Below are positions 1,015-64,000 of a stretch of DNA of 64,000 nucleotides, piece by piece. Position numbers and translations under genes: made by a program. This stretch comes from Strigops habroptila (Eukaryota; Chordata; Aves; Psittaciformes; Psittacidae). Under the pieces are notes generated by a model, which had not been told where the DNA came from, searched no databases, and saw nothing but the letters and a program-made list of their open reading frames with translations. The stretch spans positions 1-64,000 of the forward strand of contig NW_022651099.1 in NCBI RefSeq assembly GCF_004027225.2, written 5' to 3'. Position 1 is the stretch's first letter. Each line of letters opens with the position of its first letter.

Positions 1015-4000
1015 TCACAGGGCCAGCTTGCAGTGACACAGCTCCTTGTACATGAGGCGCCGCAGCTGGGGCATATCCTGCTGCGTGAAGCTGAACGGCC
1101 GCCCCAGCGCCAGGAACTTGCAGTACTGGGGGGGGGGGACCCCAAAAATAATGGGGGGGGGGGAGGGCAAAAAGAGGGGGTGGGGGGTAGAAAGGGGGGG
1201 GTAGAAAGAGGGAGGGGAGTAGAAAAGGGGGGGGCAAAAAGAAGGGGGAGTCAATGGGGGGTAATGAGGAAGCAGCACATACACACACCTCCCCCCCCCC
1301 CCCAATGGGGATCTGAAGGGGTAAAGGGGGAAAGAGAGGGGTGCCCCCCCCCCACACCCCCACCCCGGACCATGGAGGCATGGGGGGGGGTATGGACATG
1401 CTGGGAGTGCCCCCCCCCTCCATGATGGCCATTGCCACCCATTGGCTTCCGTTGTCCCTATGTGTGACCCCCCCGTGATCGCCATTGCTCCCCCCTTACT
1501 TCCATTGTTTTCCATTACCCCCATTGCCCCTATATGTGACCCCCCCATGATCCCCATCGCCCCCCCATTACCCCCATTGCCGTCCATGTGACCCCCCCAT
1601 GATCCCTATTGCCCCCCCATCAACCCCATTGTCCTCCATTACCCCCATTGCCCCCACATGTGACCCCCCCATGACCCCCATTGCCCCCCCATTACCCCCA
1701 TTGCCCCTACATGTGACCCCCCCATGACCCCCATTGTCCCCCATTAACCCCATTGTCCTCCATTACCCCCATTGCCCCTACATGTGACCCCCCCATGATC
1801 CCCATTGCCCCCCCATTACCCCCATTGCCTTTCATTATCCCCATTGCCCCCACATGTGACCCCCCATTGCCCTCCATTGTCCCTACGTGTGACCCCTCCA
1901 TGATTCCCATTGCTCCCCCACTACCCCCATTGCCCTCGATTGCCCCCATTTCCCCCACATGTGACCCCCCCATCACCCCCATTGCCCCCCCATTACCCCA
2001 TTGCTCTGCATTATCCCTACGTGTGACCCCCCCATGATCCCCATTGCCCCCCCACTACCCTCATTGCCCTCGATTGCCCCCATTTCCCCCACATGTGACC
2101 CCCCATGATCCCCATTGCCCCCCATTACCCCCATTGCCCCTATATCTGACCCCCTCATGATCCCCATTGCCCCCCCATTACCCTCCATTACCCCCATTGC
2201 ACCTACATGTGACCCCCCCATTACCCCCATTGCCCCCCCATTACCCCCACATGTGACCCCCCATGATCCCCATTGCCCCCTTATGATCAACATTACCCCC
2301 CCATTACTCCCATTGTCCCTACATGTGACCCCCCCATGATCCCCATTACCCCCATTGCGGTCCATGTGACCCCCCCATGATCCCCATTGCCCCTCATTGC
2401 CCCTATATCTGACCCCCTCATGATCCCCATTGCCCCCCCATTACCGCCTTTACCCCCCATTACCCCTACGTGTGACCCCCCCACGATCCCCATTGCCCCC
2501 CCATTACCCCCATTGCCCTCCATTGTCCCTACATGTGACCCCCCCACGATCCCCATTGCCCCCCCATTACCCCCGTTGCCCCCATTACCCCCATTGCCCC
2601 TACATGTGACCCCCCCATGATGCCCATTGCCCCCCCATCACCCCTACATGTGACCCCCCCCAAACCCCATTCCCCCCATTAACCCCATTGTCCCCCATTG
2701 CCGTCCATATGACTCCCCCATGATCCCCATTGTCCCCCATTACCCCCATTGCCCTCCATTACCCCCACATGTGACCCCCCCATGATCCCCATTACCCCCC
2801 CATTGCCCTCCATTACTCCCATTGTGCCTACATGTGACCCCCCCATGATCCCCAGTGCCCCCCATTACCACTACAAGTGACACCCCATTGCCCCCCCATT
2901 CCCCCCATTGCTCTCCATTATGCCCACTGCCCCTACATGCGGCCCCCCCATATCCCCATATAGTCTCATGTATGCCCCCCCATGACCCCTCATGTGTGCT
3001 CCATCACCCCATAGCACCTCATATACCCCCCATATACCCCCCCACGACCCCATGTGTGCCCCCCCATGACCCCATATGACCTCAGATGTACCCCCCTGAC
3101 CCCATTCTCCACCCCCCACCCCCCCAGCCCCCCCCCCCATTCACCTGCAGCACGAAGGCCCCGCAGTCGCTGTCATTGTTCTGCCGGGCCACGTTCTATG
3201 GGGGGGGGGGGTGAGAAAAGGGGGGTCACCCATAGGCCAGGGGGGGTCCCCGAGGGTTAATGGGGGTCCCTAAGGGTTAAGGGGGGGGCACCCACCATCT
3301 TGAAGGCCCCCCGCCAGCCCTCCCGGAAGTCGGGGCGCTCCTTCTTGTCGGCCTCGGCCTGCAGGTACCGGCAGATGTGCTGCCAAAGGGGGGGGGTCAG
3401 ATGGAGACAGTGTGTCCCCCCCATGGCCCTGACCCCCAAATACCCCCCCAAAAGCAGCCCATAAGCCCCTCAATGTCCCCCATTGATCCCCCGCTATCTT
3501 CCCTGTGTCTGCTCCATGTGCTCACCCCCAAGTGGCCCCCCCAAAAATGACCCCATGAGGCCACAACGTCCCCCCAAAATATCCCCTTAACCCTTCTATA
3601 TCCCCCCCATGTGACCCCCTCCAAAACCCTCCCATGTCCCCCAGGCACCCAAGACCACCCCCAAAACCCCTTTTATTCCTCTCAGCCCCCTCTTCCTGCC
3701 CCCGTACCCCCCCCAAACCCCCTCAGGGCCCCCCTCCAGGGCCCCCCAAGCCCTCTGTGCCCCCCAACCTTGGGGCAGCGGCGGTTGAGGGTGCGCTGGG
3801 AGTCGAAGTAGGTGATGCGGCGCCGGGTGACGTCCACAGCCACGAGGGACCAGTGCACCTCGAGGTGGATGGGGATGAGCAGCAGCTCCTTCCCGAAGAT
3901 GTCCACCTATAACGGGGGGGGGGACACACACACAAGGCATGGATGTGACCCCCCCTGCCCCATAGGCCACGCCCCCAGAGCGCCAAAACCCCGCCCCATT

Positions 4001-7000
4001 CCCACAGCCAACTTGTTCCCATTGAGAGCAAGGCAGCGGTGAGGCCACGCCCCCTACAGGCAAGCCCCACCCACAAACAACCCCCATATACCCCTATAGT
4101 GGCTCTACCCCACCACAAGCCCCGCCCACAAAGCCATTAAGCTCCGCCCACTGTCCTAAGACCCACCCTACCTTTCATGAAGCCCCTAAGCCACGCCCCC
4201 GTTTGTCTCAGGCCACGCTCCCTTTCTATTCTCTCTCCTTTATTGGCTCCACGTCTCTCTTCTAAGCCCCACTCCTCCATTCAACCCCATTCATGCCCTG
4301 ACTCCGCCCACCCCTTCTGGCCACGCCCCCTCCAAGCCCCACACCTCCTTTCATGCTGTGGCTCCGCCCACTCCCAGGCCACGCCCCCTCCATTCATGCC
4401 CTGGCTCCACCCACCCCAAAAGCCACGCCCCTTTCTGCCCACACCCCCACCAAAGCCCTTCCCCTCCATCCCCTACTCCGCCCATCCCTGGCCACGCCCC
4501 CTCCAAGCCACACCTCTCCATTCACTCTCACCCTGTGACTCCACCCACCCCATAAGCCCCGCCCCTTTCTGCCCACACCCCTTCCAAACCCCGCCCCTTC
4601 ATTCACCCCATTAATGCTTTGACTCCTCCTACTCCATAGGCCACGCCCCCTCAAAGCCCCGCCCCTCCATTCATGCTATGACTCCAGCCACCCCATAGGC
4701 TCCGCCCCCCTTCTGGCCACGCCCCCCTCCAAAGCCCTTCTTCTCCATTCACCCCCATTCATGCCCTGGCTCCGCCCACCCAATAAGCCCCGCCCCTTTC
4801 TGGCCACGCCCCCTCCAAGCCCCGCCCCTCACGTTCTTGGTCCAGCGCTGCACCCCCTCATAGCCCCGCGTCCGCAGCTTGTCATAGAAGAAGCTGTTGA
4901 AGAAGTGGACCTGGGGGGGGATTTGGGGGGGTTATGGGGTGGGGGGGCATGGCCAGGGCCCCCCTAAACCCCTCCTACACCCCCGGGACCCCCCCACCTT
5001 ATCGGGCACCGCGTCCATCACCAGATCCCCGTACATGTTCATCACCTGCAGAATGGGGAGAGAAGGGGTAAGCATAGTGTGAGCCCATCCCTTGGGACCC
5101 CCCTCCCCAAACCCCCACATACCCCAAAGCACCCCCTGGACACACAAATCCATGCCAGGATCCCCCCAAACTCTAACCAGGACCCCCAAACTCCAATCAG
5201 GACCCCTCAAACCCCATCCAAGACTCCCCAATCCCCCTCTAGGGCCCCTCAAACCACCCCCAGGACCCCCCGGATTCCACCCAGGACCCCCCAACCCTGC
5301 CCCAGCATTCCCAAACTCCAACCAGGACCCCCAAACTCCCTCCAGGACCCCCCAAACCCCCCCAGCATCCCCAAACTCCACCCAGGACCCCTCAAACCCC
5401 ATCCAAGACCACTCAATCCCCCTCTAGGACCTCCCAAACACCCCTAAACTCCACCTGGGACCCCACAAACCCCATCCAAGACCCCTCAATCCCTCTCAAA
5501 CCACCCCCAGGACCGCCTAAATCCCCCCAGGACCCCCAAACTCCAAGTAGGACCCCCCAATCCCCCTCAAACCACCCCCAGGACCCCCCAAACTCCAACC
5601 AGAACCCCCCAAATGCCCCCAAACTCCAACCACGACCCCCCAAATGCCCCCAAACTCCAACCAGGACCCTGTAAACCCCATCCAAGACCCCTCAATCCCA
5701 CTCAAACCACCCCCAGGACCCCCTAAATCCCCCCAGGACCCCCAAACTCCAAGCAGGACCCCCCAAACTCCAACCAGGACCCCCCAATCCCTCTCAGGCC
5801 CCCTCAAACCACCCCCAGAACCCCCCAAACTCCACCCAGGACCCCCCAAACGCCCCCAAACTCCAACCAGGACCCCGTAAACCCCATCCAAGACCCCTCA
5901 ATCCCACTCAAACCACCCCCAGGCCCCCCAAAATCCCCCCAGGACCCCCCAAACTCCACCCAGGACCCCCCTGACCTGGTCATTGAGCCAGTTGGGCCCA
6001 TAGAGCGTCTGGAGGTCGTCCATGGTGAGCACGTGGCGCTTGTAGCTGACGCGGAAGCCGCGGAGCAGCGCGGTGCCGGGCAGGCGCTGGTAGGACTGCA
6101 GGAGCTGCTGCACCGAGCCCCGCCTGCGGCACCCCAAAACCAGCCCCAAACAGCCCCCAAACGGCCCTGAGCACCCCAAAGTCAGCCCAAAACACCCCGA
6201 AATCAGCCCGAAATACACCGAAACACCCTGAAACACCCCAAAACCGGCTCGAAATACACCAAAACAGCCCAAAACACCATGAAACCAGCCCTAAACACCT
6301 CAAAATCAGCACTGAACAGCCCCAAATCAGCCCAAAACACCCCAAAAGAGCCCAAAACACCCCAAAAGAGCCCAAAACCAGCTCGAAATACACCAAAACA
6401 GCCCAAAACACCCTGAAACCAGCCCTGAACAGCCCAAAAAACCCCAAAACCAGCTTGAAATACACCAGAACAGCCCAAAACAGCCCCAAACACCAGAAAA
6501 CCACCCCTGAACAGCCCAAACCCAGCCCGAAACACCCCAAAACCAGCTTGAAATACACCAAAACAGCCCAAAACACTATGAAACCAGCCCTGAACGCCCC
6601 AAAACCAGCCCTGAACACCCCAAAAGACCCCAAAAATGGCTCAAAATACACTGGAACAGCCCAAAACAGCCCCAAACACCCCAAAATCAGCCCTGAACAC
6701 CCCAAAACAGCCCAAAACCACCCACAAACAGCCCTGAACACCCCAAAATCAGCCTGAAGCACCCCAAAACCGGCTCTAAGTACACTAAAACACCCCAAAC
6801 CAGCCCAAAACCAGCCCTAAACACCCAAAATCAACCCTAGACACCCCCAAACACCCCCAAACACCTCAAAACCACCCCAAAACCAGTCCTAAACACCCTA
6901 AAAACGGCCCTAAACATCCTAAAACACTGCAAACACCCTAAAACCACCCCAAAACGAGCCCTAAACACCCAAAATCAGCCTGAAACACCCCAAAACCAGC

Positions 7001-10000
7001 CCTAAACCCCCCAAAACCAGCTATAAACACCCTAAAACACCCCCAAACACCCCAAAACACCTCAAAAACACCCCCAAACCAACCTTAAACACGCAGAACC
7101 ACCCCAAAACCCCCTTTAACACCCCAAAACCCCCAAACCCCAACCCTAAGTACCCCAAAACCCCCCAAAACCAGCGCCAAAGCCCCCGAAAACCACCCCA
7201 AAACACACCAAACACCCCCCAAACCCCCCTGAAAACCTCCTGACACCCCCAAAACCCCCCCAAACCCCCCTCCCCAAGCCCAAACCCCCTCTAGGACCCC
7301 CCCCCAGCCCCACAAACACCTCCCTTAGACCCCACAAACACCCCCTTTAGCCCCCATTAACCCCTCTTTAACCCCCTAAAATCGAACTGTAACCCCACAA
7401 AGCCCTCGGGGGGGGTCCCCAAAACCCCCCCAGCCCCCCCCCCCGCCCCCCCCCACCTCTGGGGGGTGCTGAATTCCTGCTGGAAGATGTCCTCCAGCTT
7501 CTCCACCACCTCGTCCGCACTGACCGGGATGAGGCTGCCGTAAGCCTGCAGGAACTCATCCAGGATACCTACAACGGGGGGGGGGGGTGTCACTTTTGGG
7601 GGGCCCCCCCTCCAAAAACCCCCCTAAAACTCCTCCAAACCCCCCCATATCCCTCCAAAATCACCCCCAGAGCCCCAAAACCATCCCCAGAGCCCTTAAA
7701 ACCCCCCCAAAACCCCCTAAACCCCCCCAAAATACCCCCCCAGGTCCCCAATACCCCCCCAAGCACTGCCCAGACCCCCCCAAAAGAACCCCCAGACCCA
7801 CAACCCGCCCCAAACCTCCAAAACACCCCCCCCAGGCCCCCAAATCACCCCAAATCCCCCCCTTAGACCCCCAAAACACCCCCCCTTAGACCCCCGAAAC
7901 ACCCCAAATCCCCCCCCAAACTCCCAAAACACCCCCCCCAGACCCCCAAATCCCCCCCCCCAGACCCCCAAATCACCCCCCAACACCCCTAAATCCCCCC
8001 CCTTAGACCCCTCAAAACCCCCCCTGGATGCCAAACCCCCCCCCACAAGACCCAAACCCCCCTCTCAGCCCCCCAAAACCCCTCCAAAACCCCCCCTTAG
8101 GCCCCAAATATCCACCCCCAAACCCCTAAATACCCCCCCAAGACCCCCTTAAACCCCCCTAAATCTACCCCAGACCCCATAAGTCCCCCCCCAGGACCCC
8201 CTAAACCCCCCCCAGACCCCCTAAACACCCCCCAGGCCCCATAATACCCCCCCAGACCCCCCCAAAGCCCCCCCATAGACTCACTCTGGACGCAGGTAAC
8301 GTGTTCCTCCCGCAAGGGGCTGGTTTGGGGGCCCCCCCCCCGGGCAATGGGGGGCTCCGGGGGGGGCTCCCCCCCGCCCCCCCCCACGCTGCAGACATTG
8401 CTGATGAGGATGGCGGCTTCTGGGGGGGTGGGGGGGGCCCCCGGGCCCAAACCATTGGGGAGGGGAGCTAAAAAGAGGGGGGGGGGGGGCACAATGAACC
8501 CCAATAATGGACTCATATGGGGGGGGGAATGGGAGGATGCTGTCACTTTAAATACCCCCCCCCCATGGATTTGGACCCCCCCGGGGTACACAGAGAGGGG
8601 GGGGAGCCCATAATGGGCCCCCCCGAAGGGATTTGGGGACCCCCCCATTGATTTAGAACAGCCCCCCCTTAGATTTAAGGTGCCCCCCCCATGGATTTAG
8701 TGTGGCCCCCCATAGATTTAGGCTCCCCCCATAGATTTAGGGCTCCCCTATAGATTTAGGACCCCCCCCATATAAATTTAGAAGGCCCCCCCATAGATTT
8801 AGGTCCTCCCTATGAATCTAGGGCCCCCCCCATAGATTTAGGACCCCCCCAATTGATTTAGACACACTCCCCCATACATTTAGGGTCTCTCCCCATAGAT
8901 TTCACCCCCCCCCAAGTAGATTTAGGTTCTCCCCATACAGGTTTAGGGCCCCCCCCCTGCATTTAGGACCCTCTGAATGGATTTAGGGCCCCCCCCCCAT
9001 GGATTTAAGGTCCCCTCCCATACATTTAGGGCCCCCCATGCACTTAGGACCCCCCCAATGGATTTAGGGTCCCCCCCCAGAGACTTATGGCCCCCTCTTA
9101 TAGATTTAGGGGTCCCCCCCATTGGTTTAGTGCCGCCCCACAGATTTAAGCCCCCCCCCCCCGATTTAGGGGCCCTCCCCTTAAATATAGGATGTCCCCC
9201 CCCATAGATTTAGGGGGGCCTCCCATGCATTTAAGGTCCCCCCCTAGATTTAAGGACACCCCCTTTAAATATAGGATGCCCCCCCCTAGATTTAAGCCCC
9301 CCCCTAAGATTTAGGGCCCCCCCCCTCAGATATAGGAGATCCCCCCCATAGATTTAGGGGCCCCCCCATAGATTTAAGCCCCCTCCTAAAATACAGGCTA
9401 TCCCCCCCATAGATTTAGGGGGCCCCCCCTCAGATATAGGAGGTCCTCCCCATAGATCTAGGGTCCCCCCCATGCATTTAAGCCCCCCCCTTACATTTAG
9501 GGACCCCCCCCTTAAATACATAATGTGTCCTCCATATATTTAGAGCCTGCCTTCAAATACGAATCCCCTATAGATTTAAGGCCCCCCCCACAAATTTACG
9601 CCCCCCCCCTCAGATGTAAGAGGTCCCCCCCATAGATTTAGGGTCGCCCCCACGCATTTAAGCCCCCCCTCAAATATAGGATGTGTCCCCCCATAGATAT
9701 AGGGCCCCCCCCATAGCTTTACACCCCCCTCACCTGTATCCCCGCCGAGCCCCGCGCCCCCCCCCATCCCCCCCCCGCCTCCGGGGTCCCCCCCGAACTC
9801 CACATCCCCAAACAAGGGGGTGCCGAGGGGGGGCGGGGGGGGAAGGGCCGGGAGGCGGGGGGGGGGAGGGCAGCTCCTCCGCTTGGGGGGGGTGCAGCGG
9901 GTGTGTGTGGGGGGGCGGCGGCAGCGGCAGCGCCGGTTGCGGGGGGTGGTGGGGGGGGGCGCTCCCCCCCCCCCCGCCGCTGCCTCGTTCCTCCTCTTCA

Positions 10001-15194: not shown

Positions 15195-28340
<13,146 letters not shown>

Positions 28341-29521: not shown

Positions 29522-30020
29522 NNNNNNNNNNNNNNNNNNNNNNNNNNNNNNNNNNNNNNNNNNNNNNNNNNNNNNNNNNNNNNNNNNNNNNNNNNNNNNN
29601 NNNNNNNNNNNNNNNNNNNNNNNNNNNNNNNNNNNNNNNNNNNNNNNNNNNNNNNNNNNNNNNNNNNNNNNNNNNNNNNNNNNNNNNNNNNNNNNNNNNN
29701 NNNNNNNNNNNNNNNNNNNNNNNNNNNNNNNNNNNNNNNNNNNNNNNNNNNNNNNNNNNNNNNNNNNNNNNNNNNNNNNNNNNNNNNNNNNNNNNNNNNN
29801 NNNNNNNNNNNNNNNNNNNNNNNNNNNNNNNNNNNNNNNNNNNNNNNNNNNNNNNNNNNNNNNNNNNNNNNNNNNNNNNNNNNNNNNNNNNNNNNNNNNN
29901 NNNNNNNNNNNNNNNNNNNNNNNNNNNNNNNNNNNNNNNNNNNNNNNNNNNNNNNNNNNNNNNNNNNNNNNNNNNNNNNNNNNNNNNNNNNNNNNNNNNN
30001 NNNNNNNNNNNNNNNNNNNN
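29522..30020. other. Assembly gap (499 N)
   Basis: An unbroken run of N. Its left edge is inside the 498-bp satellite of CHD3 intron 5 and its right edge is in an unrelated CpG island. The rest of CHD3 (PHD, chromo and helicase exons) is not found to the right, so the gap either hides many kilobases or is a false join. Confidence 0.98.
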
Positions 30021-39237: not shown

Positions 39238-42200
39238 ATGGTGCGCGCCGGGCGGGGGGGGGGTTCCAAGGCGGGGGGGGGGGGGGTCGGTGGGGTCGGA
39301 CCCGATCGTGACCCCCCCCCCCGCCGGTGTTGTTCCCCCCCCCCCCCCCCAGAGCAGTGCGCTCACCCAGGGCCTGGAGCGCGTCCCCGCGCAGGTCGGG
39401 TACCTCGTCATCAGCGACGGCGCCGTCCTGGCGGTGAGCGGGGCCGTGGGGCCTATGGGGCGGGATATGGGGCGATATGGGGCGATATGGGGCGATATGG
39501 GGCGATATGGGGATGGGGGGGGTCTGTGGGGTGGGATATGGGGCGCTATGGGGCGATATGGGGCGGGATATGGGGCGATATGGGGGGATATGGGGTCTAT
39601 GGGGCGGGATATGGGGGGGATATGGGGCGATATGGGGCGGGATATGGGGGCATATGGTGCAGGATATGGGGATGAGGGGGGTCTATGAGGTGGGATATGG
39701 GGGCCTATGGGGTGGGATATGGGGGGATATGGGGCGGGATATGGGGATGGGGGGGTCTATGAGGCTCTATGGGGCGGGATATGGGGATGAGGGGGGTCTA
39801 TGAGGCTCTATGGGGTGGGATATGGGGATGGGGGGGCTATGAGGTGGGATATGGGGGCCTATGGGGCCTATGGGGTGGGATATGGGCATGGGGGGGGCTA
39901 TGGGGTGGGATATGGGGGTCTATGGGGCCTATAGGGTGGGATATGGGGGGATATGGGGCGGGATATGGGGATGGGGGGGTCTATGAGGCTCTATGGGGGG
40001 GGATATGGGGATGGGGGGGTCTATGGGGTGGGATATGGGGGGATATGGGGCGGGATATGGGGATGGGGGGGTCTATGAGGCTCTATGGGGGGGGATATGG
40101 GGATGGGGGGTCTATGGGGTGGGATATGGGGGGCTATGGGGCGGGATATGAGGATGGGGGGGTCTATGAGGCTCTATGAGGCAGGATATGGGGATGGCGG
40201 GGTCTATGGGGTGGGATATGGGGGGATATGGGGCGCGATATGGGGGTCTATGGGGTCTATGGGGTGGGATAGGGTGATGGGGGGTGTCTATGAGGGTCTG
40301 TGGGGTGGGATATGGGGATGGGGGGGTCAGTGGGGTGGGATATGGGGGGATATGGGGCGGGATATGGGGATGGGGGATGTCTGTGAGGCTCTGTGGGGGG
40401 GATATGGGGATGGAGGGGCTATGGGGTGGGATATGGGGGGATATGGGGCAGGATATGGGGATGGGGAGGTCTATGGGGCGGGATATGGGGCGATATGGGG
40501 CAGGATATGGGGGGCTATGGGGTCTATGGGGCGGGATATGAGGATGGGGGGTCTATGAGGCTCTATGGGGCGGAATATGGGGATGGGGGGGTCTATGGGG
40601 TGGGATATGGGGGGATATGGGGCGGGATATGGGGATGAGGGGGGTCTATGAGGCTCTGTGGCGTGAGATCTGGTGATGGGGGGTGTCTATGGGGCGGGAT
40701 ATAGGGGGATATGGGGCAGGATATGGGGATGGGGGGTCTATGAGGGGATATGGGGCTCTATAGGGGGCTATGGGGTGGGATCTGGTGATGGGGAGGTCTA
40801 TGGGGGGGGTCTATGGGGCGGGATATGGGGATGGGGGGGTCTGTGGAGTGGGATATGGGGGGATATGGGGCGGGATATGGGGATGGGGGGTGTCTATGGG
40901 GGGGATATGGGGCGGGATATGGGGATGGGGGGTGTCTATGGGGGGGCTATGGGGCAGGATACGGCGATGGGAGCTGCCTGCGGGGCTCTATGGGGCGGGC
41001 CACGGTGATGGGGGGGGGGTCTGTGGGGCAGCACTTGGGGGTCTCTATGGGGCAGCCCCACTGACCCCCCCGCAGTCCTCGGGGGAGCTGCAGAACGACG
41101 AGGTCTCGGCCGGGCTCCTCTCGGGGCTCGTGGCCGCGGCCTCGGGGCTGCGGCTCCAGCGCGGCCTCGACCCCCCCTTCAAGCGCCTCTCGGGTCAGTG
41201 GGGACCATGGGGGGCAATGGGGGGCTATGGGGGCAATGGGGGGAATGGGGGTAATGGGGCAATGGGGGTAATGGAGGCAATGGGGGTAATGGGGCAATGG
41301 GGGCAGTGGGGGGCAATGGGGAGAATGGGGCAATGGGGGCAATGGGGGCAATGGGGGTAATGGGGGCAATGGGGGCTATGGGGGTAATGGAGGCAATGGG
41401 GGGAATGGGGCAATGGAGGGTAATGGGGCAATGGGGGGTAATGGGGGTAATAGGGGTAATGGGGCAATGGGGGCAATGGGGGTTATGGGGCAATGGGGGT
41501 TATGGGGACAATGGGGCAATGGGGGTAATGGGGGGTAATGGGGCAATGGGGGGTAATGGGGCAACGGGGGGCAATGGGGGCAATGGGGGCAATGGGGGGC
41601 AATGGGAGCAATGGGGGGCAATGGGGCAATGGAGGGTAATGGGGCAATGGAGGGTAATGGGGCAATGGGGGTAATGGGGGCAATGGGGGTAATGGGGCCG
41701 TGGGGGGCAATGGGGTAATGGGGGTCTATGGGGCAATGGGGGTAATGGGGGCAATGGGGCAATGGGGGCTATGGGGGGTAATGGGGCAATGGGGGGCAAT
41801 GGGGGCAATGGGGCAATGGAGGGTAATGGGGGGTAATGGGGCAATGGGGGGCAATGGGGGTAATGGGGCAATGGGGGGCAATGGGGGCAATGGGGCAATG
41901 GAGGGTAATGGGGGTAATGGGGCAATGGGGGGCAATGGGGGTAATGGGGGCAATGGGGCAATGGGGGCTATGGGGGGTAATGGGGCAATGGGGGGCAATG
42001 GGGGGCAATGGGGGTAATGGGGGCAATGGGGCAATGGGGGCTATGGGGGGTAATGGGGCAATGGGGGTAATGGGGGCAATGGGGCAATGGGGGCTATGGG
42101 GGGTAATGGGGCAATGGGGGGCAATGGGGGGCAATGGGGGCAATGGGGCAATGGAGGCAATGGGGCAATGGAGGGTAATGGGGCAATGGGGGTAATGGGG

Positions 42201-42971
42201 GGCAATGGGGGTAATGGGGCCGTGGGGGGCAATGGGGGTAATGGGGGTCTATGGGGCAATGGGGGTAATGGGGGCAATGGGGCAATGGGGGCTATGGGGG
42301 GTAATGGGGCAATGGGGGTAATGGGGGTAATGGGCACAATGGGGGGCAATTTTGGGGGCACAATGGGTGTAATAGGGGCAATGGGGGGCTATGGGGGCAA
42401 TGGGGGGCAATGGGGGAAATGGGCCATGGGGGCAATGGGGGTAATGGGGGTAATGGGGGCAATGGGGTAATGGGGGGCAATGGGGGCAATGGGGGTAATG
42501 GGGGGCAGTGGGGGTAATGGGGGGCAGTGGGGGTAATGGCAATGCGGGGTAATGGGGGGAATGGGGGGCAATTGGGGCAATGATGGTAATGGGGCAATGG
42601 GGGCAATGGGGGTAATGGGGACAATGGGGGGCAATGGGGGCAATGGGGACAAGGGGGGCAATGGGAGTCAATGGGGGTAATGGGGACAATGGCGACACTG
42701 CCGCCTTGTGGCCATCAGGGCAAACAACACCCTGGGACCATTGTAGTCAATGGGGGCCACCAACCGCTGTGCCCATTGGGGACCCCCATTGCCCCCCATT
42801 ACCCCCACTGCCCCCATTACCCCCATTGCCCCCATTACCCCCATTGACTCCATTGCCCCCATTGTCCCCACAGTTGTCTTTGGGGACCACTCTCTGCTCG
42901 TCACCGTCTCGGGCCAGAAGCTCTTTGTGGTGAAACGCCAGAACCACGTCCAGGAGCCTGTCACCGTCTGA
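39238..42971 (+). CDS. LAMTOR4: LAMTOR4, Ragulator complex subunit
   Basis: A subunit of the lysosomal Ragulator complex, which anchors Rag GTPases and mTORC1. Exons: 39238-39240 (the ATG alone, followed by donor GTGCGC), 39353-39433, 41076-41193, 42874-42971. The sum is 300 bases, 99 residues, the same as human LAMTOR4. Recognisable segments are [55 protein letters not shown] and [17 protein letters not shown]; together they form the single roadblock-like fold. The ATG context is GGCACCATGG. All introns beyond the first are satellite-filled, so about 300 coding bases are spread over 3.7 kb. Confidence 0.95.
39450..41060. repeat. LAMTOR4 intron 2 satellite ('ggcgggatatggggatg')
   Basis: G-rich units of 14-40 bp: 'ggggcgggatatgggg', 'gatgggggggtctatg', 'aggctctatgggg'. 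Longer blocks of about 110 bp repeat between 39960 and 40640. Four or more GGG/GGGG runs with short loops per 30 bases mean almost continuous potential for G-quadruplexes in the transcript strand. Confidence 0.92.
41200..42640. repeat. LAMTOR4 intron 3 9-bp minisatellite
   Basis: Units of 8-10 bp, 'atgggggca' and 'atgggggta', with 'atggggggca' length variants. Longer blocks of about 60-90 bp are visible as repeats of repeats. The same 9-mer family recurs in SENP3, TRAPPC14 and GAL3ST4 introns. Confidence 0.92.
42647..42808 (+). repeat. Duplicated module, LAMTOR4 copy
   Basis: A unique core of about 100 bp ('cgacactgccgccttgtggc' to 'aaccgctgtgcccattgggg') is flanked by a G-rich repeat on the left and its complement (C-rich) on the right. 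The same module, about 99% identical, occurs inverted at 56631-56794 in TRAPPC14. It ends about 65 bp before the exon 4 acceptor. Confidence 0.92.
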
Positions 42972-43194: not shown

Positions 43195-43200
43195 TTTATT
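43195..43200 (-). terminator. TRAPPC14: TRAPPC14 poly(A) signal
   Basis: TTTATT reads AATAAA on the minus strand. It is the first good signal after the TRAPPC14 stop at 45124 and would give a 3' UTR of about 1.9 kb made largely of minisatellite. Confidence 0.7.
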
Positions 43201-43259: not shown

Positions 43260-44900
43260 TATAGCGTCCCTATGGTGTCCCCAGTGTCACTTAATGGGTG
43301 CCACCACCAGCACATGGAGCCCATTAGGTGATAATAGGGACAATGGGGACACTGGTCCCATAGGGATCTTGTGTCCCTTTGTCCCTATGTCCCCCCCATA
43401 GCTTGTGCCCCCCCCTTGATGTCCCCAATATCACTTAATGGGTCCCCAATGGTCTCCCCAATGTCCCTTAATGGGTGCCACCACCAGCACATGGAGCCCA
43501 TTAAGTGACACTGGGGACACCAGTGGGGGCAATGGGGACAATAGGGATACTGGTCCCATGGGGATCTTGTGTCCCTTTGTCCCCCCCCAAAGCTTGACCA
43601 CCCCCCATAGGTGTTCCCATTGATCCCAGTGGTGTCCCACTGGTATCCCCAATGGTGTCCCCAGTGGTGTCCCCAATGGCGTCCCCATTGGCATCCCCAT
43701 TGTCCCCAGTGGTGTTCCCACTGATCCCACTGGTGTCCCAATGGTGTTCCCAGTGTCCCCAGTGGTGCCCCATTGATCCCAATGGTGTCCCATTGGCATC
43801 TCCATTGTCCCAATGGTGTTCCCATTGATCCCAATGGTGTCCCCATGGTGTTCCCATTGTCGTCAATGGTGTCCCATTGACCCCAGTGGTGTCCCAATGG
43901 TGTTCCCAGTGCCCCATTGTCCCCAATGGTGTCCCAATGGTGTTCCCAGTGTCCCCAGTGGTGTGCCCATTGATCCCAATGGTGTCCCATTGGCATCTCC
44001 ATTGTCCCTATGGTGTTCCCATTGATCCCAATGGTGTCCCAATGGTGTCCCAATGGTGCCCCATTGTCCCCAATGGTGTCCCATTGACCCCAGTGGTGTC
44101 CCAATGGTGTTCCCATTGATCCCAGTGGTGTCCCAATGGTGTTCCCAGAGCCCCATTGTCCCCAATGGTGTCCCAATCGTGTTCCCAGTGTCCCCAGTGG
44201 TGCCCCATTGTCCCCAATGGTGTCCCATTGGCATCTCCATTGTCCCCAGTGGTGTTCCCATTGACCCCAATGGTGTCCCAGTGGTGTTCCCATTGATCCC
44301 AATGGTGACTCAATGGTGTTCCCAGTGTCCCCAATGGTGCCTCATTGTCCCCAATGGTGACCCAATGGTGGTCCCAGTGTCCCCAGTGGTGCCCCATTGT
44401 CCCCAATGGTGTCCCAATGGAGTTCCCATTGTCCCCAATGGTGTCCTAGTGGTGTTTCCAGTGTCCCCAGTGGTGCCCCATTGATCCCAATGGTGTCCCA
44501 ATGGTGTTCCCATTGTCCCCAATGGTGTCCCAACGGTGTTCCTTTTGATCCCAATGGTGACCCAATGGTGTTCCCAGTGTCCCCAGTGGTGCCCCATTGA
44601 TCCCAATGGTGTCCCAATGGTGTTCCCATTGACCCCAATGGTGTTCTCAGTGTTCCCAGTGGTGTCCCATTGGCATTTCCATTGTCCCTATGGTGTTCCC
44701 ATTGACCCCAATGGTGTTCCCATTGATCCCAGTGGTGCCTCATTGTCCCCAATGGTGTCCCATTGGCATCTCCATTGTCCCCAGTGGTCTTCCCATTGAT
44801 CCCAATGGTGTCCCAATGGTGTGCCCATTGATCCCAATGGTGTCCCATTGGCATCCCCATTGCCCCCAGTCGCATCCCATTGACCCCACTGGTGCCCCCA
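43260..44900. repeat. Minisatellite in the TRAPPC14 3' UTR
   Basis: Units of 9-10 bp ('ccaatggtgtc', 'ccattgatcc', 'ccagtggtgt') are organised into blocks of about 27-30 bp and longer. A separate phrase, 'gggtgccaccaccagcacat', is duplicated at about 43289 and 43476. If the poly(A) call is right, the array is part of the mature mRNA, an unusual place for so long a repeat. Confidence 0.88.
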
Positions 44901-45123
44901 ATGTCACTTAATGGGTCCCCACTGATATCCCCTAGCCCCCATCGCCCCCATACCCCCCATAGCCCCCATTGCCCCCCATAGCCCCCCATAGCCCCCATTG
45001 CCCCCATTGCCCCATAGCCCCCATAGCCCCATAGCCCCCCATAGCCCCATAGCCCCCCATAGCCCCCCATAGCCCCCCATAGCCCCATAGCCCCCCATAG
45101 CCCCCCATAGCCCCCCATTGGTG

Positions 45124-48100
45124 TCACTGCACGGGGGGCACCACCAGCACCTTGCACTCCCTCTTGGCGATCTTGTCCAGCGCCAGCACCGCCCGGTCGG
45201 GGGGCAGCGCCAGGGGGCGCCCCACGGGGGACCCCACCGGGGGGGTGATGGCGCGGCGCTCCATCACACTGCCCGACCTGGGGACAAGGGGACAATGGGG
45301 GGTCTATGGGGTCTATGGGGTGTCTATGGGGCGATATGGAGTGTCTATGGGGTGATATGGGGTGTCTATGGGGCTCCATCACACTGCCCGACCTGGGGAC
45401 AAGGGGACAATGGGGTGATATGGGGTCTATGGGGTGTCTATGGGGTGATATGGGGTGTCTATGGGGTGTCTATGGGGTGTCTATGGGGCTCTATGGGGCT
45501 CCATCACATTGCCCGACCTGGGGACAAGGGGGGGTCTAGGGGGTGATATGGGGTGATATGGGGTGTCTATGGGGTGATATGGGGTGTCTATGGCGCTCCA
45601 TCACACTGCCCGACCTGGGGACAAGGTGACAATGGGTGTCTATGGGGTGATATGGGGTGTCTATGGGGTGTCTATGGGGCTCCATCACACTGCCCGACCT
45701 GGGGACAAGGGGACAATGGGGTGATATGGGGACAGATGTCACCTCTATGGGTCCCTATAGGGGTGGATGTCCCCTCTGTGGGGATGGAGGACTCCTCTAT
45801 GGGGTTCCTATGGGGATGGATGTCCCCTCTATGGGTCCCTATGGGGATGGATGTCCCCTCTATGGGTTCCTATGGGGATGGATGTCCCCTCTATGGGTCC
45901 CTATGGGGATGGATGTCACCTCCGTGGGTCCATATGGGGATGGATGTCCCCTCTATGGGTCCCTATGGGGATGGATGTCACCTCCGTGGGTCCCTATGGG
46001 GATGGATGTCCCCTCTATGGGTCCCTATGGGGATGGAGTCCCCTGTATGGGACTGAGCATCCTCTCTATGGGGTTCCTATAGGGATGGATGTCGCCTCCT
46101 GAGGTCCTTATGGCCCCATATCCCTATATCCCCCAATGCCCCCATATCCCACACCCCACACCCCACACCCCATTCCCCACGCCCCATATCCCACATCCCA
46201 TACCCCATGTCCCACACCCCACCCCCCACCCCCCACTCCCCATATCCCATTCCCCACCCCCCACCCCCCCTATCCCACACCCCACCCCCCACACCCCATA
46301 CCCCACACCCCATATCCCATACCCCACACCCCCCAACACCCGCAACCCCCACCCCCCACACCCCACATCCCCTATCCCACCCCCCACCCCCCATACCCCG
46401 TATCTCATACCCCATATCCCACACCCCATATCCCATACTCCATATCCCACACCCCATACCCCATATCCCATATCCCATACCCCATATCCCATATCCCATA
46501 TCCCATATCCCATACCCCATACCCCACACCCCATATCCCATACTCCATATCCCATACCCCATTCCCCACCCCCCCCACCCCATATCCCACACCCCATATC
46601 CCACACCCCATATCCCATACTCCATATCCCATACCCCATTCCCCACCCCCCCCACCCCATATCCCACACCCCATATCCCATATCCCATATCCCATATCCC
46701 ATATCCCACACCCCATATCCCACACCCCATACCCCATATCCCATATCCCATATCCCATACCCCACACCCCATATCCCATACCCCATATCCCATACCCCAT
46801 ACCCCATATCCCATATCCCACACCCCATATCCCACACCCCATATCCCATATCCCATATCCCACACCCCATATCCCACACCCCATATCCCATACTCCATAT
46901 CCCATACCCCATTCCCCAACCCCCCCACCCCATATCCCACACCCCATACCCCACACCCCATATCCCATACTCCATATCCCATACCCCATACCCCATATCC
47001 CACACCCCATATCCCATATCCCATATCCCATATCCCATATCCCACACCCCATATCCCACACCCCATATCCCACACCCCATATCCCATATCCCATATCCCA
47101 CACCCCATATCCCACACCCCATATCCCACACCCCATATCCCACACCCCATATCCCATATCCCATATCCCACACCCCATATCCCACACCCCATATCCCACA
47201 CCCCATATCCCACACCCCATACCCATATCCCATATCCCATATCCCACACCCCATACCCCACACCCCATACCCCATATCCCATATCCCATATCCCATATCC
47301 CACACCCCATACCCCACACCCCATATCCCATATCCCATATCCCATATCCCACACCCCATATCCCACACCCCATACCCCATACCCCATATCCCATACCCCA
47401 TTCCCCACCCCCCCCACCCCATATCCCATATGGGGGGATGTCTCCCATGTCTCCCCCCCCCCACCTGATGAGGTGGCTGCGCGGCGGCTGCTGGTGCGAG
47501 AAGGACTGGGAGCGGCCGAGCCCCGCCTGGTGCCGCTCCAGCAGGTCGCGCAGGGCCGGGCTGCTGGGGCTGCTGCGCCGCGACACGGGCCGGGGCTCAG
47601 CCGCGGCCGGCGCCGCGCTGGCGGCGAACTGCAGCTTCAGCTTCATGTGGCGGGACAGCTGCGGGCACGGCCGTGAAACGGGGGGGGGGTGGGGAATGGG
47701 ATATGGGGGATGGGATATGGGATATGGGATGTGGAATATGGGGTTTGGGATACAGGGTGTGGGATATGGGGTGTGGGGTATGGGGTGTGGGGTGTGGGGT
47801 GTGGGATATGGGGTGTGGAATATGGGGTTTGGGATACAGGGTGTGGGATATGGGGTGTGGGGTATGGGGTGTGGGATATGGGATGTGGAATATGGGGTTT
47901 GGGATACAGGGTGTGGGGGGTGTGGGATATGGGGTGTGGGGATATGGGATATGGGGTGTGGGATATGGGATATGGGGTGTGGGATGTGGGGTGTGGGGTG
48001 TGGGATATGGGGTGTGGGATATGGGGTGTGGGGTATGGGATGTGGGGTATGGGGTGTGGGATATGGGGTGTGGGGTATGGGATATGGGGTATGGGGTGTG

Positions 48101-54100: not shown

Positions 54101-57100
54101 GGACCCAAAATGGTCCTAATGGCCATAAAGAGGGTCCCAATGGTCATAAAGAGGGTCCCAATGGTCCTAATGAGGGTCCCCATGGCCATAAAGAGGGTCC
54201 CTATGGCCACAATGACACCCCAAAGAGGGTCCCCATGGCCCCAGGTTGTCCCCATTGCCCCATTGCCCCCATTACCCCCATCACCCCCATTGTCCCCATT
54301 GCCCTCATTGCCCCCATTGCCCCCATTGCCCCCATTGCCCCCATTGTCCCCATTGTCCCCATTACCCCCATTGCCCCCATTGTCCCCATTGTCCCCATTA
54401 CCCCCATTACCCCCATTGCCCCCATTGTCCCCATTGCCCCCATTGTCCCCATTGTCCCCATTACCCCCATTGCCCCCATTGCCCCCATTGTCCCCATTGT
54501 CCCCATTGTCCCCATTACCCCCATTGCCCCCATTGCCCCCACTGCCCCCATTGCCCCCATTGCCCCCCATTGCCCCCATTGTCCCCATTGCCCCCATTGT
54601 CCCCATTGTCCCCATTACCCCCATTGCCCCCATTGTCCCCATTGCCCCCATTGTCCCCATTGCCCCCATTACCCCCATTGTCCCCATTGCCCCCATTGCC
54701 CCCATTGCCCCCCATTGCCCCCATTGTCCCCATTACCCCCATTGCCCCCATTGTCCCCATTGCCCCCATTGTCCCCATTGCCCCCATTGCCCCCCATTGC
54801 CCCCATTGTCCCCATTGCCCCCCATTGCCCCCAGTCACCAGACGTCGTCGACCAGCAGCACGGAGCCATCGGGCAGCACGGGCAGGTAACTGGCGTTGAG
54901 GTTGGGCAGCACCCGAACGGAGCACAGGGACAGCGGCTCCTGCGAGCTGCCATTGAGCACTGGGGACAATGGGGGCGATGGGGACAATGGGGGCGATGGG
55001 GGCAATGGGGACAATGGGGGTAATGGGGACAATGGGGCAATGGGGATGGGAGGAACATGCCGGGACCTGGTTAGAGCCATGTCATTGTCCCCATGATGTC
55101 CCCATATCCCATACCCCACACCCCATACCCACACCCCATATCCCACACCCCATATCCCATATCCCATACCCCACACCCCATACCCCATACCCCATATCCC
55201 ATATCCCATGCCCCATATCCCATGCCCCATATCCCATATCCCATATCCCATACCCCATATCCCATACCCCATATCCCACACCCCATATCCCACACCCCAT
55301 ACCCTATATCCCACACCACATACCCCATACCCCGTACCCCATATCCCATACCCCATATCCCATACCGCACACCCCATATCCCATACCCCATATCCCATAC
55401 CCCACACCCCATATCCCATATCCCACACCCCATATCCCATATCCCATACCCCATACCCCATATCCCATACCCCACACCCCATATCCCACACCCCATATCC
55501 CATACCCCACACCCCATATCCCATACCCCACACCCCATACCCCATATCCCACACCCCATACCCCATATCCCATACCCCATATCCCACACCCCACACCCCA
55601 TATCCCACACCCCATATCCCATATCCCATACCCCATACCCCATATCCCATATCCCACACCCCATACCCCATATCCCATATCCCACACCCCATATCCCATA
55701 CCCCACACCCCATACCCCATATCCCATACCCCATATCCCATATCCCATACCCCATACCCCATATCCCATACCCCATACCCCATATCCCATATCCCATACC
55801 CCACACCCCATACCCCATATCCCATACCCCATATCCCATATCCCATACCCCATATCCCATACCCCATATCCCACACCCCATATCCCATACCCCACACCCC
55901 ATACCCCATATCCCATACCCCATACCCCATATTCCATACCCCATACCCCATATCCCACACCCCATACCCCATATCCCATACCCCATATCCCACACCCCAC
56001 ACCCCATATCCCACACCCCATATCCCATACCCCATACCCCATATCCCACACCCCATATCCCATATCCCATACCCCATATCCCATACCGCACACCCCATAT
56101 CCCATACCCCACACCCCATACCCCATATCCCACACCCCATACCCCATATCCCATACCCCACACCCCATACCCCATATCCCATATCCCATATCCCATACCC
56201 CATATCCCACACCCCATATCCCATATCCCATACCCCATATCCCCAATGTCACCTTTAAGCAGGGTCAGATACTTCCCGGACACTGTGAGTTGGCGGCATC
56301 GGACCACGGGGGGAGGCAGCACCGTCAGCAACGTGCTCACTGTTGGGACATGGATATGGGTACAGGGATATAGGGATATGGGATATAGGGTATGGGGACC
56401 ATAGGGGACAACAGGGACAAGGGAGGTGGCACCTTGTGCCTTGAAGGCCGCCTGCTCCTGGCGGAAGACTTGAGCTGGATCCCGGCTCTGCAGCAGCTTC
56501 AGGTACCCGGAGCCTTCCTGCAGCTCCGGGGGCTCCGTGTCCCGGCGCCACACTGTGACCACCACCTATGGACATGGGGACAATGGGGACAATGGGGACA
56601 ATGGGGGGCAATGGGGGTAATGGGGGGCAATGGGGGTAATGGGGGGCAATGGGGGTCCCCAATGGGCACAGCGGTTGGTGGCCCCCATTGACTACAATGG
56701 TGCCAGGGTGTTGTTTGCCCTGATGGCCACAAGGCGGCAGTGTCGCCATTGTCCCCATTACCCCCATTGACTCCCATTGCCCCCCTTGTCCCCATCGCCC
56801 CCCATTGCCCCCATTGCCCCATTGCCCCCCATTGTCCCCATTACCCCCCTTGTCCCCATTACCTCCATTGCCCCCATTGCCCCATCGCCCCCCATTGCCC
56901 CCCATTGTCCCCATCGCCCCACCTTGGCCTTGCTGGTGCCGGGGGGCAGCCGGTCCAGGGCGATGGTGAGGGGGAAGATGACCTCATCCGGACACACGAT
57001 GGGCTCCTCCACAGGGACCTGGGGACACGGGGGCATTGGGGCACCTTGGACCAGTCACCCCATGTCCCTTTGTCCGCTTCATCCCATCCCCATGTCCCCC

Positions 57101-61591: not shown

Positions 61592-64000
61592 TCACTCCAT
61601 CCCGGTGCCATTCCCAAACTGCCACCGATCCAGGATATCCTTATACTGCAGCTCCGGCGTCGCCATCTGCGCGCAGCGCTCCCGCTCCTCCCCGCTTAAC
61701 CCGGGCCGGAGCTGGTATCCCATGATCCGCGCTCTTCCCGGCGGCTGGAACGGCCGGAGCCTCCCATCGGTGATAGCCGGAGCCGGGATGGGCCCCCCTC
61801 CTTGGAGACACCTTCGGGATGCCTCTTCCCGGCGTTGGCGCAAGCGGGATACCTCCGATTCCATGCGGGCTACACCGAAAGCTCGCACCCGTTGCCAGAA
61901 GGAGCGGTTGATGTGGACGTAGAGAGCCCAATCCAAGTCATTCCATAAGCGGAGGCGTTGGGATTGAGCCGGGGATAACTTGGGAACGTCCTCGGCGGCG
62001 CGGCCGTTGTGGATGAAGGAGGTGATGGCTTCCTCCGGCCAACACAGCGCCTCCCGCAGGAGAACCATGGACTCATCGAAGTGCTCGGCCACCAGGACCA
62101 TGGAGAAGGTTTGGTCCAAGGTATCCAAGGCGGATGCCAAGGAATCGGCATCGCTCACGGGGGGTAACCCAAAGTCGAACCATTGGAGGTTCTTGGCGTA
62201 GTGATTCCCTCTTATCCCAGCTTTGTAGAAGCGTTCCGGGCTCTCCAGGAAGGATTGGAGGGATGGAGCATTCCGGAAAGCTGGAGTGATGGAGCGGTAA
62301 TAGGAAAAGGCGGATTCGGCCAAGGTGGCCGGGTCACGGATGATGGAGAAGTAGAAGCTGTCGTTGGGCATCACGCGTTGGACCTGGGGGTATAATGGGG
62401 GGGGGATATGGGGGATCTATAGGGGGGGTGAGGTGGAGGGTGTCACAGGGTCAGCCTATGGTACCCCAATATCACCTCGTGGTACCCAACATCATGATAC
62501 GGTGCCCGACAGCATCCTATGGTACCCCGATATCATCCTATGGTACCCCGATATCATGCTATGGTACCCCAAGAGCATCCTATGGTACCCCAATATCATG
62601 CTATGGTACCCCAACAGCATCCTATGGAACCCCCCCATTGTGTCCCCCCCCTTGTCCCCCCGCATCCCCCCATTGTGACCATTCCCCCCCATCACCCCCC
62701 TACCCCCCCATTACCTCCCTGTGGTCAGAGCACCTGCGATGATGGATGTTGTTGAAGGGGGGTCCCCATCACCCCCATTGCCCCCATTGTCCCCATCACC
62801 CCCATCATCCCCACCACCCCATATCCCCCCATATCCCATATGCCCTCATATCCCCCCATCACACCATATCCCCCATCACCCCACATCCCCCCATATCCCA
62901 TATGCCCCCATCACCCCATATCCCCCCATCACCCCCATCACCCCCATTGCTTCCATCACCCCATATCCCCCCATCACCCCCATTACCCCCATTGTCCCCA
63001 TTGCCCCCATCACCCCCATTGCCCCCATCACCCCATATCCCCCCATCACCCCCACTGCCTCTATCACCCCATATCCCCCCATCACCCCCATTGCCCCCAT
63101 CACCCCCATTACCCCACATCCCCCCATCACCCCATCACCCCATATCCCCCCATCACCCCCCACCGCCCCCCCCACCTCGGCGCGGTCGAAGCGCATGTGA
63201 TGGCAGATGATGTCGAAGGGGGGTCCCCATTGCCCCCATCACCCCATATCCCCCCATTACCCCCCCATCCCCCCATCACCCCACATCCCCCCATCACCCC
63301 CATCACCCCATATCCCCCCATATCCCATATCCCCCCATCACCCCAATTGCCCCCATTGTCCCCATCACCCCACATCCCCCCATCACCCCCATCACCCCCA
63401 TCACCCCATATCCCCCCATATCCCCCCATCACCCCCATCACCCCCCCCACCTCCGCGCGGTCGAAGCGCATGTGATGGCAGATGATATCGAAGGGGGGTC
63501 CCCATTGCCCCCATCACCCCACATGCCCCCATATCCCATATCCCCCCATCACCCCCCTTGCCCCCATTGTCCCCATCACCCCACATCCCCCCATCACCCC
63601 CATCACCCCCATCACCCCATATCCCCCCATCACCCCCATCACCCCCCCCCACCTCCGCGCGGTCGAAGCGCATGTGATGGCAGATGATATCGAAGGGGTG
63701 CCCCCATTGCCCCCATCACCCCCATCCCTCCATATCCCCCCATATCCCCCCATCACCCCCCACCGCCCCCCCCACCTCCGCGCGGTCGAAGCGCATGTGA
63801 TGGCAGATGATATCGAAGGGGGGCCCCCGCGGGCGGAAGCCTTTGACGCGCTCGGCTCGGAAGGGCCGGGGGTACCCGAACTGGTACCGGCGCGGGAGGG
63901 CGAAGCGCAGGCGGCGGCGCTGGCCGAAGCGGTGCAGCACGTTGAGCACGCTGCTCCCGCCCGCCTTGTGCGTCTTCAGGAACGCAACGTGCGTGCGCGG
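61592..64000 (-). CDS. GAL3ST4: GAL3ST4, galactose-3-O-sulfotransferase 4 (3' part, 5' end outside window)
   Basis: A Golgi type II membrane enzyme transferring sulfate from PAPS to the 3-OH of galactose; mammalian GAL3ST4 prefers core 1 O-glycans. The last coding exon is 62383-61592 (263 codons plus stop). The preceding exon is 63776 up to the window edge (75 codons, partial). The 5'-phosphosulfate loop is seen as FLKTHKAGGSSV and the 3'-phosphate region as FYFSIIRDPATLAESAFSYY. Other family segments are GYPRPFRAERVKGFRP, RGNHYAKNLQWFDFG, WNDLDWALYVHINRSFW and the end MATPELQYKDILDRWQFG. The MATPELQYKD tail and the neighbour TRAPPC14 favour GAL3ST4 over GAL3ST1-3. The junction reads FDRAE|VQRVMPNDSF, phase 0. 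The transmembrane anchor and start lie beyond 64000. The intron holds extra copies of the upstream exon's end. Confidence 0.95.
62460..62640. repeat. 'catcctatggtaccccaatat' minisatellite
   Basis: Seven or eight units of 22-25 bp in the GAL3ST4 intron. They are less GC-rich than the adjoining array and are followed by a C-rich tract. Confidence 0.88.
62713..62765 (-). pseudogene. Diverged relic of the GAL3ST4 exon end
   Basis: The minus strand reads 'cccccttcaacaacatcc' to 'gaccacagggag' plus GTAATG. Aligned without gaps to the end of the GAL3ST4 exon (FDIICHHMRFDRAE plus donor), about 28 of 42 coding bases match, giving FNNIHHRRCSDHRE. The donor-like GT is in the same place. It looks like an old copy of the unit seen three times, nearly intact, further upstream. 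Confidence 0.55.
62760..63775. repeat. GAL3ST4 intron array carrying copies of an exon end and donor
   Basis: The base is a C-rich 9-18 bp array ('cccccatcacc', 'ccatatcccc', 'ccccattgc'). Embedded in it, three copies of a segment of about 55 bp repeat the last 14 codons of the upstream exon plus its 5' splice site, with GT near 63173, 63449 and 63652. The true exon has GT at 63774-63775. Copies are at most a few bases different and keep the frame. Confidence 0.92.

Follow-up and report, generated by a model that had tools for sequence, protein, structure and literature searches.

Intron 10 of the TRAPPC14 gene, on the minus strand of contig NW_022651099.1 of Strigops habroptila, ends in an array in which a core spanning the acceptor of the last coding exon stands five times in direct orientation. 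Each core comprises about 20 bases of intron and 20-23 bases of exon, and the copy that codes is the last of the five in the transcript, at the 3' end of the array. The window analyzed here comprises the first 64,000 bases of this 73,844-bp contig, and the genome searched comprises 1,148,577,936 bases in 89 contigs. Among PDB chains, a 110-residue piece of alpha-A globin (exons 2 and 3) from this genome has its best single match in 2zfb (217.9 bits), presumably a parrot haemoglobin, one bit ahead of 3wtg (216.9), presumably from emu; six double-length chains, engineered haemoglobins by their names, match it twice and rank higher than the natural chains. This supports a bird and, tentatively, a parrot; a lysozyme C search gave no match and is uninformative. 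The array is a further case, in another bird, of exon stuttering, a phenomenon of avian dot-chromosome genes in print since 2026 and described mainly from chicken (Hron et al. 2026, PMC12954441; this and the other papers given by PMC number are cited for the parts of their texts covered in this analysis). We consider it highly probable that exon stuttering explains the array, including the consequences for the RNA proposed below.

Five copies of the last TRAPPC14 acceptor

The gene had been named TRAPPC14 in a first-pass annotation made from the sequence, and this identification holds: the last two exons, when spliced, score 177.4 bits against the Pfam profile TRAPP14_C (cut-off 28). In a profile search of the genome in which the best candidates were scored, TRAPP14_N was detected at 7 places and TRAPP14_C at 4, exon by exon, all of them on the 73,844-bp contig. 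Our model includes 11 coding exons with an open reading frame of 568 residues without stops, and GT...AG borders at all 10 introns; the exon borders were placed by hand from translations, the open frame and the Pfam matches being the only checks on them. The donor and acceptor given previously, 47465 and 45277, are exactly the end of exon 10 and the start of the last exon in this model. Exon 11 scores 76 bits against the TRAPP14_C profile, with the match extending to the end of the exon, and the stop codon ends at 45124. A comparison of the C-terminus with PDB chains gave no matches. The positions of the two exons, the intron between them, the five cores (-20 to +20 around each acceptor; d1 to d4 in transcript order for the upstream decoy copies and F for the functional one) and the four units that separate successive copies are as follows.

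47465..47658, minus strand: TRAPPC14 exon 10; donor CAG/GTGGGG (slash at the splice point) with the GT at 47464-47463; TRAPP14_C positions 88-154 at 47458-47661
45278..47464, minus strand: TRAPPC14 intron 10; 2187 bases, mostly tandem repeats
45124..45277, minus strand: TRAPPC14 exon 11, last coding exon, stop included; functional acceptor F with the AG at 45278-45279; TRAPP14_C positions 151-201 at 45130-45282
45679..45718, minus strand: core of decoy d1; first exon base 45698; 40 bases identical to F
45595..45634, minus strand: core of decoy d2; first exon base 45614; 23 exon bases as in F; C>A at -13
45498..45537, minus strand: core of decoy d3; first exon base 45517; codons for SGNVME; differs at -21 to -15
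45373..45412, minus strand: core of decoy d4; first exon base 45392; 40 bases identical to F
45258..45297, minus strand: core F (functional); first exon base 45277
45615..45698, minus strand: unit d1 to d2; 84 bases, GT...AG
45518..45614, minus strand: unit d2 to d3; 97 bases, GT...AG
45393..45517, minus strand: unit d3 to d4; 125 bases, GT...AG
45278..45392, minus strand: unit d4 to F; 115 bases, start GTCGGGCA, end GTCCCCAG

These positions agree with the earlier description of a repeat array that has taken in a 3' splice site and the start of an exon, with the functional copy last in the transcript and spacings of 84 (d1-d2), 97 (d2-d3), 125 (d3-d4) and 115 bp (d4-F). The extent of the copied block, given there as 19 exon bases, has to be revised to 20-23 bases of exon together with about 20 bases of intron, embedded in a 10/11-bp satellite of the CCCATAGACAC type. 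The codons for SGSVME, said to be present in every copy, are found in four of the five, d3 encoding SGNVME owing to a G>A change at +9. This is the single position from -12 to +20 at which the five copies differ. Over -20 to +20, d1 and d4 match F in full (40/40) and d2 is 97% identical, with a C>A change at -13, whereas d3 deviates from the other copies at each position from -21 to -15. The cores are much better preserved than the flanks, which are made up of the CCCATAGACAC/CCCATATCACC satellite and vary in length at many points. Because d2 has 23 exon bases in common with F, compared with 20 for d1 and d4 and 19/20 for d3, it may stand closest to the first copy. In all five copies the AG is immediately followed by GT, and since exon 11 itself begins with GT, each 84-125-base unit starts with GT and ends with AG, all four having the GTCGGGCA start and the GTCCCCAG end.

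The array is more than chance. A search of the genome for the 23-base motif CAGGTCGGGCARTGTGATGGAGC with at most 2 mismatches returned 5 matches, all in the array, and the reversed control returned none. Among the 20 TRAPPC14 splice junctions checked, this acceptor alone has copies of at least 85% identity within 3 kb (three further copies, d3 being below 85%). We also repeated the published screen for exon stuttering on this gene, comparing the 11 TRAPPC14 exons with the 10 introns by blastn-short and retaining same-strand hits of at least 20 bases. This screen yielded four hits, of 46.1, 40.1, 40.1 and 32.2 bits, all of them matches of exon 11 to intron 10 next to it and all starting at exon base 1; the best hit in a shuffle control (20 shuffles per intron) was 24.3 bits. 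Exon 1 entered this screen two bases short of the start codon, which has no bearing on exon 11. The other 10 exons gave no same-strand hit of at least 20 bases in any of the 10 introns.

Probable exon stuttering in a repeat-filled intron

In exon stuttering, exon edges and the donor or acceptor beside them recur as copies across the intron, creating potential alternative transcripts (PMC12954441). In chicken, 236 such introns were reported in 115 genes, with 190 of the introns located on dot chromosomes, where exon copies were detected in 3.4% (190/5,572) of the annotated introns; the copied exon parts measure 20-187 bases, over 90% of them begin no more than 1 base from the border of the exon, and the median number of copies is 4 (PMC12954441). 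Repeat expansions have also been found in some other birds and are described as independent in each species (PMC12954441).

The TRAPPC14 array resembles the published cases in that an exon edge and its splice site are repeated directly and in tandem from the exon border into the adjacent intron only, in that the introns of the host gene are filled with repeats, and in that the exon itself is intact. It differs in belonging to another bird than the chicken on which the published screen was run, and in the shortness of the copied exon part, 20-23 bases; furthermore, PMC12954441, in the parts covered, speaks just of potential alternative transcripts, the GT...AG property of the units being added here. 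TRAPPC14 is not named in the main text of that paper, whose gene list is in the supplement. In a literature search we found nothing on an acceptor carried by a minisatellite through intron tandem duplication, nor, judging by titles and the beginnings of abstracts, in the papers found for chicken TRAPPC14.

Intron 10 has a GC content (guanine plus cytosine) of 57.3%. Tandem Repeats Finder (TRF) covers it with rows at 45295-45731, 45725-46051, 45995-46097 and 46114-47431, with small gaps between them, and masks 45,112 of the 64,000 bases of the window. Two of the repeats in intron 10 lie upstream of the array.

45725..46051, minus strand: 31-bp minisatellite upstream of the array (TRF)
46114..47431, minus strand: G-rich 7/14-bp satellite (TRF); 7 blocks (1249 bases) fit a G-quadruplex pattern

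We propose that unequal exchange, slippage or repair multiplied the block over the border of intron 10 and exon 11 in this repeat-filled intron, where it is now present as four imperfect direct tandem copies amid short satellite. Because two of the copies are identical to the source over 40/40 bases, the copying would be recent, or the copies would have been homogenised. At the RNA level, the array would be a by-product rather than a device: exon 10 would be spliced to the last copy, producing the normal message, and some transcripts would take a decoy and encode an altered C-terminus.

Several observations weigh against this explanation. Only one of the four screen hits (46.1 bits) passes the published cut-off of 42.1 bits, so that intron 10 qualifies through a single hit, and the captured exon part of 20-23 bases is close to the minimum of the 20-187 bases published. 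The contig is unplaced, and the 57.3% GC of intron 10 is modest; we infer a dot-chromosome origin from the character of the contig, which is repeat-dense and carries no chromosome assignment. Finally, the array comes from one assembly of one individual, and the use of the decoys in RNA is a prediction.

The array adds another bird to an instability described mainly from chicken, and it represents a natural experiment in splice-site choice, in which one exon is preceded by five acceptors in tandem, d1, d4 and F being identical over -20 to +20. The extra acceptor copies could confuse the cutting of the RNA or quietly buffer it.

Splicing across the array

To compare the splice sites we used crude acceptor and donor weight matrices. 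With the acceptor matrix, d1, d4 and F all score 7.10, d2 scores 5.74 and d3 scores 4.94, and these five rank 1-5 among the 86 AGs scored from 47464 to 45100. The first-pass annotation had ascribed the same acceptor strength to all copies; this is exact for two of the four decoys, d1 and d4, which match F at every position from -20 to +3, and does not apply to d2, with its change at -13, or to d3, with its differences at -21 to -15. Because d1, d4 and F score alike, nothing obvious in the acceptor sequence would make F win over d1 or d4. The upstream copies are supported as candidate acceptors. We also looked for the word U-n-A in the interval from -60 to -15, which is lacking in F and present in all four decoys (d1 additionally has TGAC at -41). 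The idea that the missing branch-point word in F favours the decoys was dropped, given that 3 of the 9 other TRAPPC14 acceptors lack U-n-A as well.

The different C-terminus that had been anticipated from the use of a decoy is predicted by translation for all four of them. Direct use of d1 or d2 would lead, after the junction residues I-R, into one common frame ending at 45536, because the 84 bases between these two copies are a multiple of 3. With d3, the predicted product would end in SGNVMEPHRAP, that is, five residues past SGNVME, and with d4 translation would read on past I-R for 349 residues and reach a stop near 44342. Any of the four decoys would entail the loss of the last 44 residues. 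A stop in the last exon should not expose a message to nonsense-mediated decay; the decoy products, with their stops within an extended last exon, should escape it.

It had also been stated that the spliceosome must either discriminate against the upstream copies or use them. This pair of outcomes is incomplete: as a third outcome, a GT...AG unit could itself be spliced out onward to the next copy. When the CAG of exon 10 is joined to GTCGGG, a donor is regenerated, so that the unit ahead of the next copy is, formally, a GT...AG intron of 84-125 bases. The array could then be self-erasing: an acceptor that stutters before an exon starting with GT would rebuild a donor with each decoy splice, and stepwise removal from d1 through d2, d3 and d4 to F would always restore the normal message and frame whatever the unit length, the duplications being buffered at the RNA level. 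Taken as an account of what the spliceosome does here, this alternative is unlikely, although several features fit it. All four units have the GTCGGGCA start and the GTCCCCAG end, and their lengths are near those of two inferred TRAPPC14 introns (93 and 91 bases). The regenerated donor CAGGTCGGG (CAG/GTCGGG) scores 4.83 with the crude donor matrix, the same as the exon 8 donor CAGGTTGGG (4.83) and above the donors of exon 1 (4.82) and exon 3 (3.31), and its one departure from the real exon 10 donor (8.74) is at +3. The C at +3 nevertheless makes it weak: 7 of the 10 TRAPPC14 donors outscore it, and the 4.83 of GTCGGG compares with a matrix maximum of 12.63, far from the strong GTAAGT-like donor that might be expected.

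Recursive splicing at AG/GT sites (PMC8797253, PMC8184009, PMC10156609) is comparable in that an AG lies next to a GT and a donor is regenerated after the first splice. As described in the parts of these texts covered, it differs in its setting, the TRAPPC14 host intron being 2.2 kb (2187 bases) long and the regenerated donor GTCGGG; recursive sites in mouse brain are rare, lie in very long genes and are enriched for AGGTAAGT (PMC8797253), and the Drosophila exon junction complex blocks such regenerated sites (PMC8184009). For TRAPPC14, recursive removal is a prediction from the DNA sequence. The observation that the units of a stuttered acceptor form GT...AG introns has no source in print that we could find in the literature searched, including the covered parts of PMC12954441. 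It provides a simple testable rule on which stuttered splice sites genes could tolerate. If self-erasure were real, genes would tolerate such arrays, which could then expand, and in birds the acceptors that stutter would be enriched for exons beginning with GT and, by a mirror argument, stuttered donors for exons ending with AG.

Tandem duplication of AGGT segments is a recognised path to new introns, including those in vertebrate ATP2A1/ATP2A2 (as cited in PMC4974935), and speaks for the self-erasing reading. In this class of intron gain (the Rogers model; ATP2A1/ATP2A2; potato RNA-dependent RNA polymerase, RdRp; PMC4974935), the duplicated segment likewise starts with GT and ends with AG, and in potato RdRp the copied block consists mainly of an upstream intron/exon structure that brings splicing signals of its own. 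In potato the duplication gives rise to a new intron, whereas the TRAPPC14 copies lie inside an existing one and their removal is hypothetical. The duplicated AGGT of the Rogers model lies within an exon; here, the AG is intronic and the GT exonic, with the copies in an existing intron. Another comparable system is the variable number tandem repeat (VNTR) in intron 18 of ABCA7 (PMC5954066), also an intronic tandem repeat beside an exon, in which the unit contains a splice site and one unit can be retained in RNA. The 25-bp unit of ABCA7 differs in carrying a donor rather than an exon start, and skipping of exon 19 rises with repeat length (PMC5954066).

That the additional copies were created by misassembly of a repetitive region is quite improbable. 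The contig is a repetitive one of 73.8 kb with a 499-base gap, and PMC12954441, in the parts covered, warns that local variation can be technical; the copies, however, are unlike one another in substitutions and spacing, the gap (29522-30020; the window has no other run of N) is 15 kb away from the array, and chicken PHF8 arrays of the same kind have been confirmed in raw nanopore reads (PMC12954441).

Least probable of all, by a small step, is a regulated switch, in which selection would maintain the decoys as alternative last-exon acceptors for TRAPPC14 proteins with other C-termini: the cores are indeed far better preserved than the flanks, the decoy acceptors are within the five best-scoring AGs and d1 and d2 lead into a common frame, but core identity is also predicted by recent copying, the resulting tails would be translated satellite (PHRHPIDTPYHPIDT...) or the 349-residue read-through, with any of the four decoys the protein would be deprived of its final 44 residues, encoded by an exon that scores 76 bits against TRAPP14_C, and exon copies are present in 190 annotated chicken dot-chromosome introns and arise from expansions described as independent per species (PMC12954441).

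Other repeats and genes on the contig

The satellite at 46114-47431 in intron 10 is G-rich on the RNA strand, and GTATGG, a donor-like word, recurs in it by eye. On the other side of the last exon, a 10-bp tandem array at 44936-45120 begins a few bases from the TRAPPC14 stop codon, and the only AATAAA on the minus strand between 45124 and 42000 is at 43200. A 501-base query has 208 matches in the genome, which by their query ranges probably belong to the satellite.

A scan of CAG sites over the 73,844 bases identified 15 repeated families among 313 sites, one of which is the TRAPPC14 array. Four of the 14 other families, located in 22.4-23.6 kb and 28.4-29.5 kb, were inspected by eye, and no exon beginning with the respective motif was seen for these four. 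In the minisatellite at 22476-23480 on the minus strand, CCAG followed directly by GTGACACC is repeated many times with a pyrimidine-rich lead, and by eye no exon opens with this motif. Of 85 unmasked islands, 16 have copies at most 3 kb away; of the TRAPPC14 exons, exon 11 alone was hit, and with the exons of other genes annotated in part, the figure gives no base rate for the contig.

Between 26300 and 29520, local repeats lie on both sides of a plus-strand exon near 28099-28334, and three blocks about 500 bp apart adjoin the N gap. The gene containing this exon, which is presumably CHD3-like, also has an intron with local repeat expansion. Translations at 41050-41190 on the plus strand and at 3685-7623 and 61595-62416 on the minus strand resemble what are presumably LAMTOR4, a SENP-type protease and GAL3ST4, respectively. 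Two stretches about 14 kb apart on opposite strands, 42616-42933 (plus) and 56502-56768 (minus), encode nearly the same odd peptide and look like inverted copies of one repeat.
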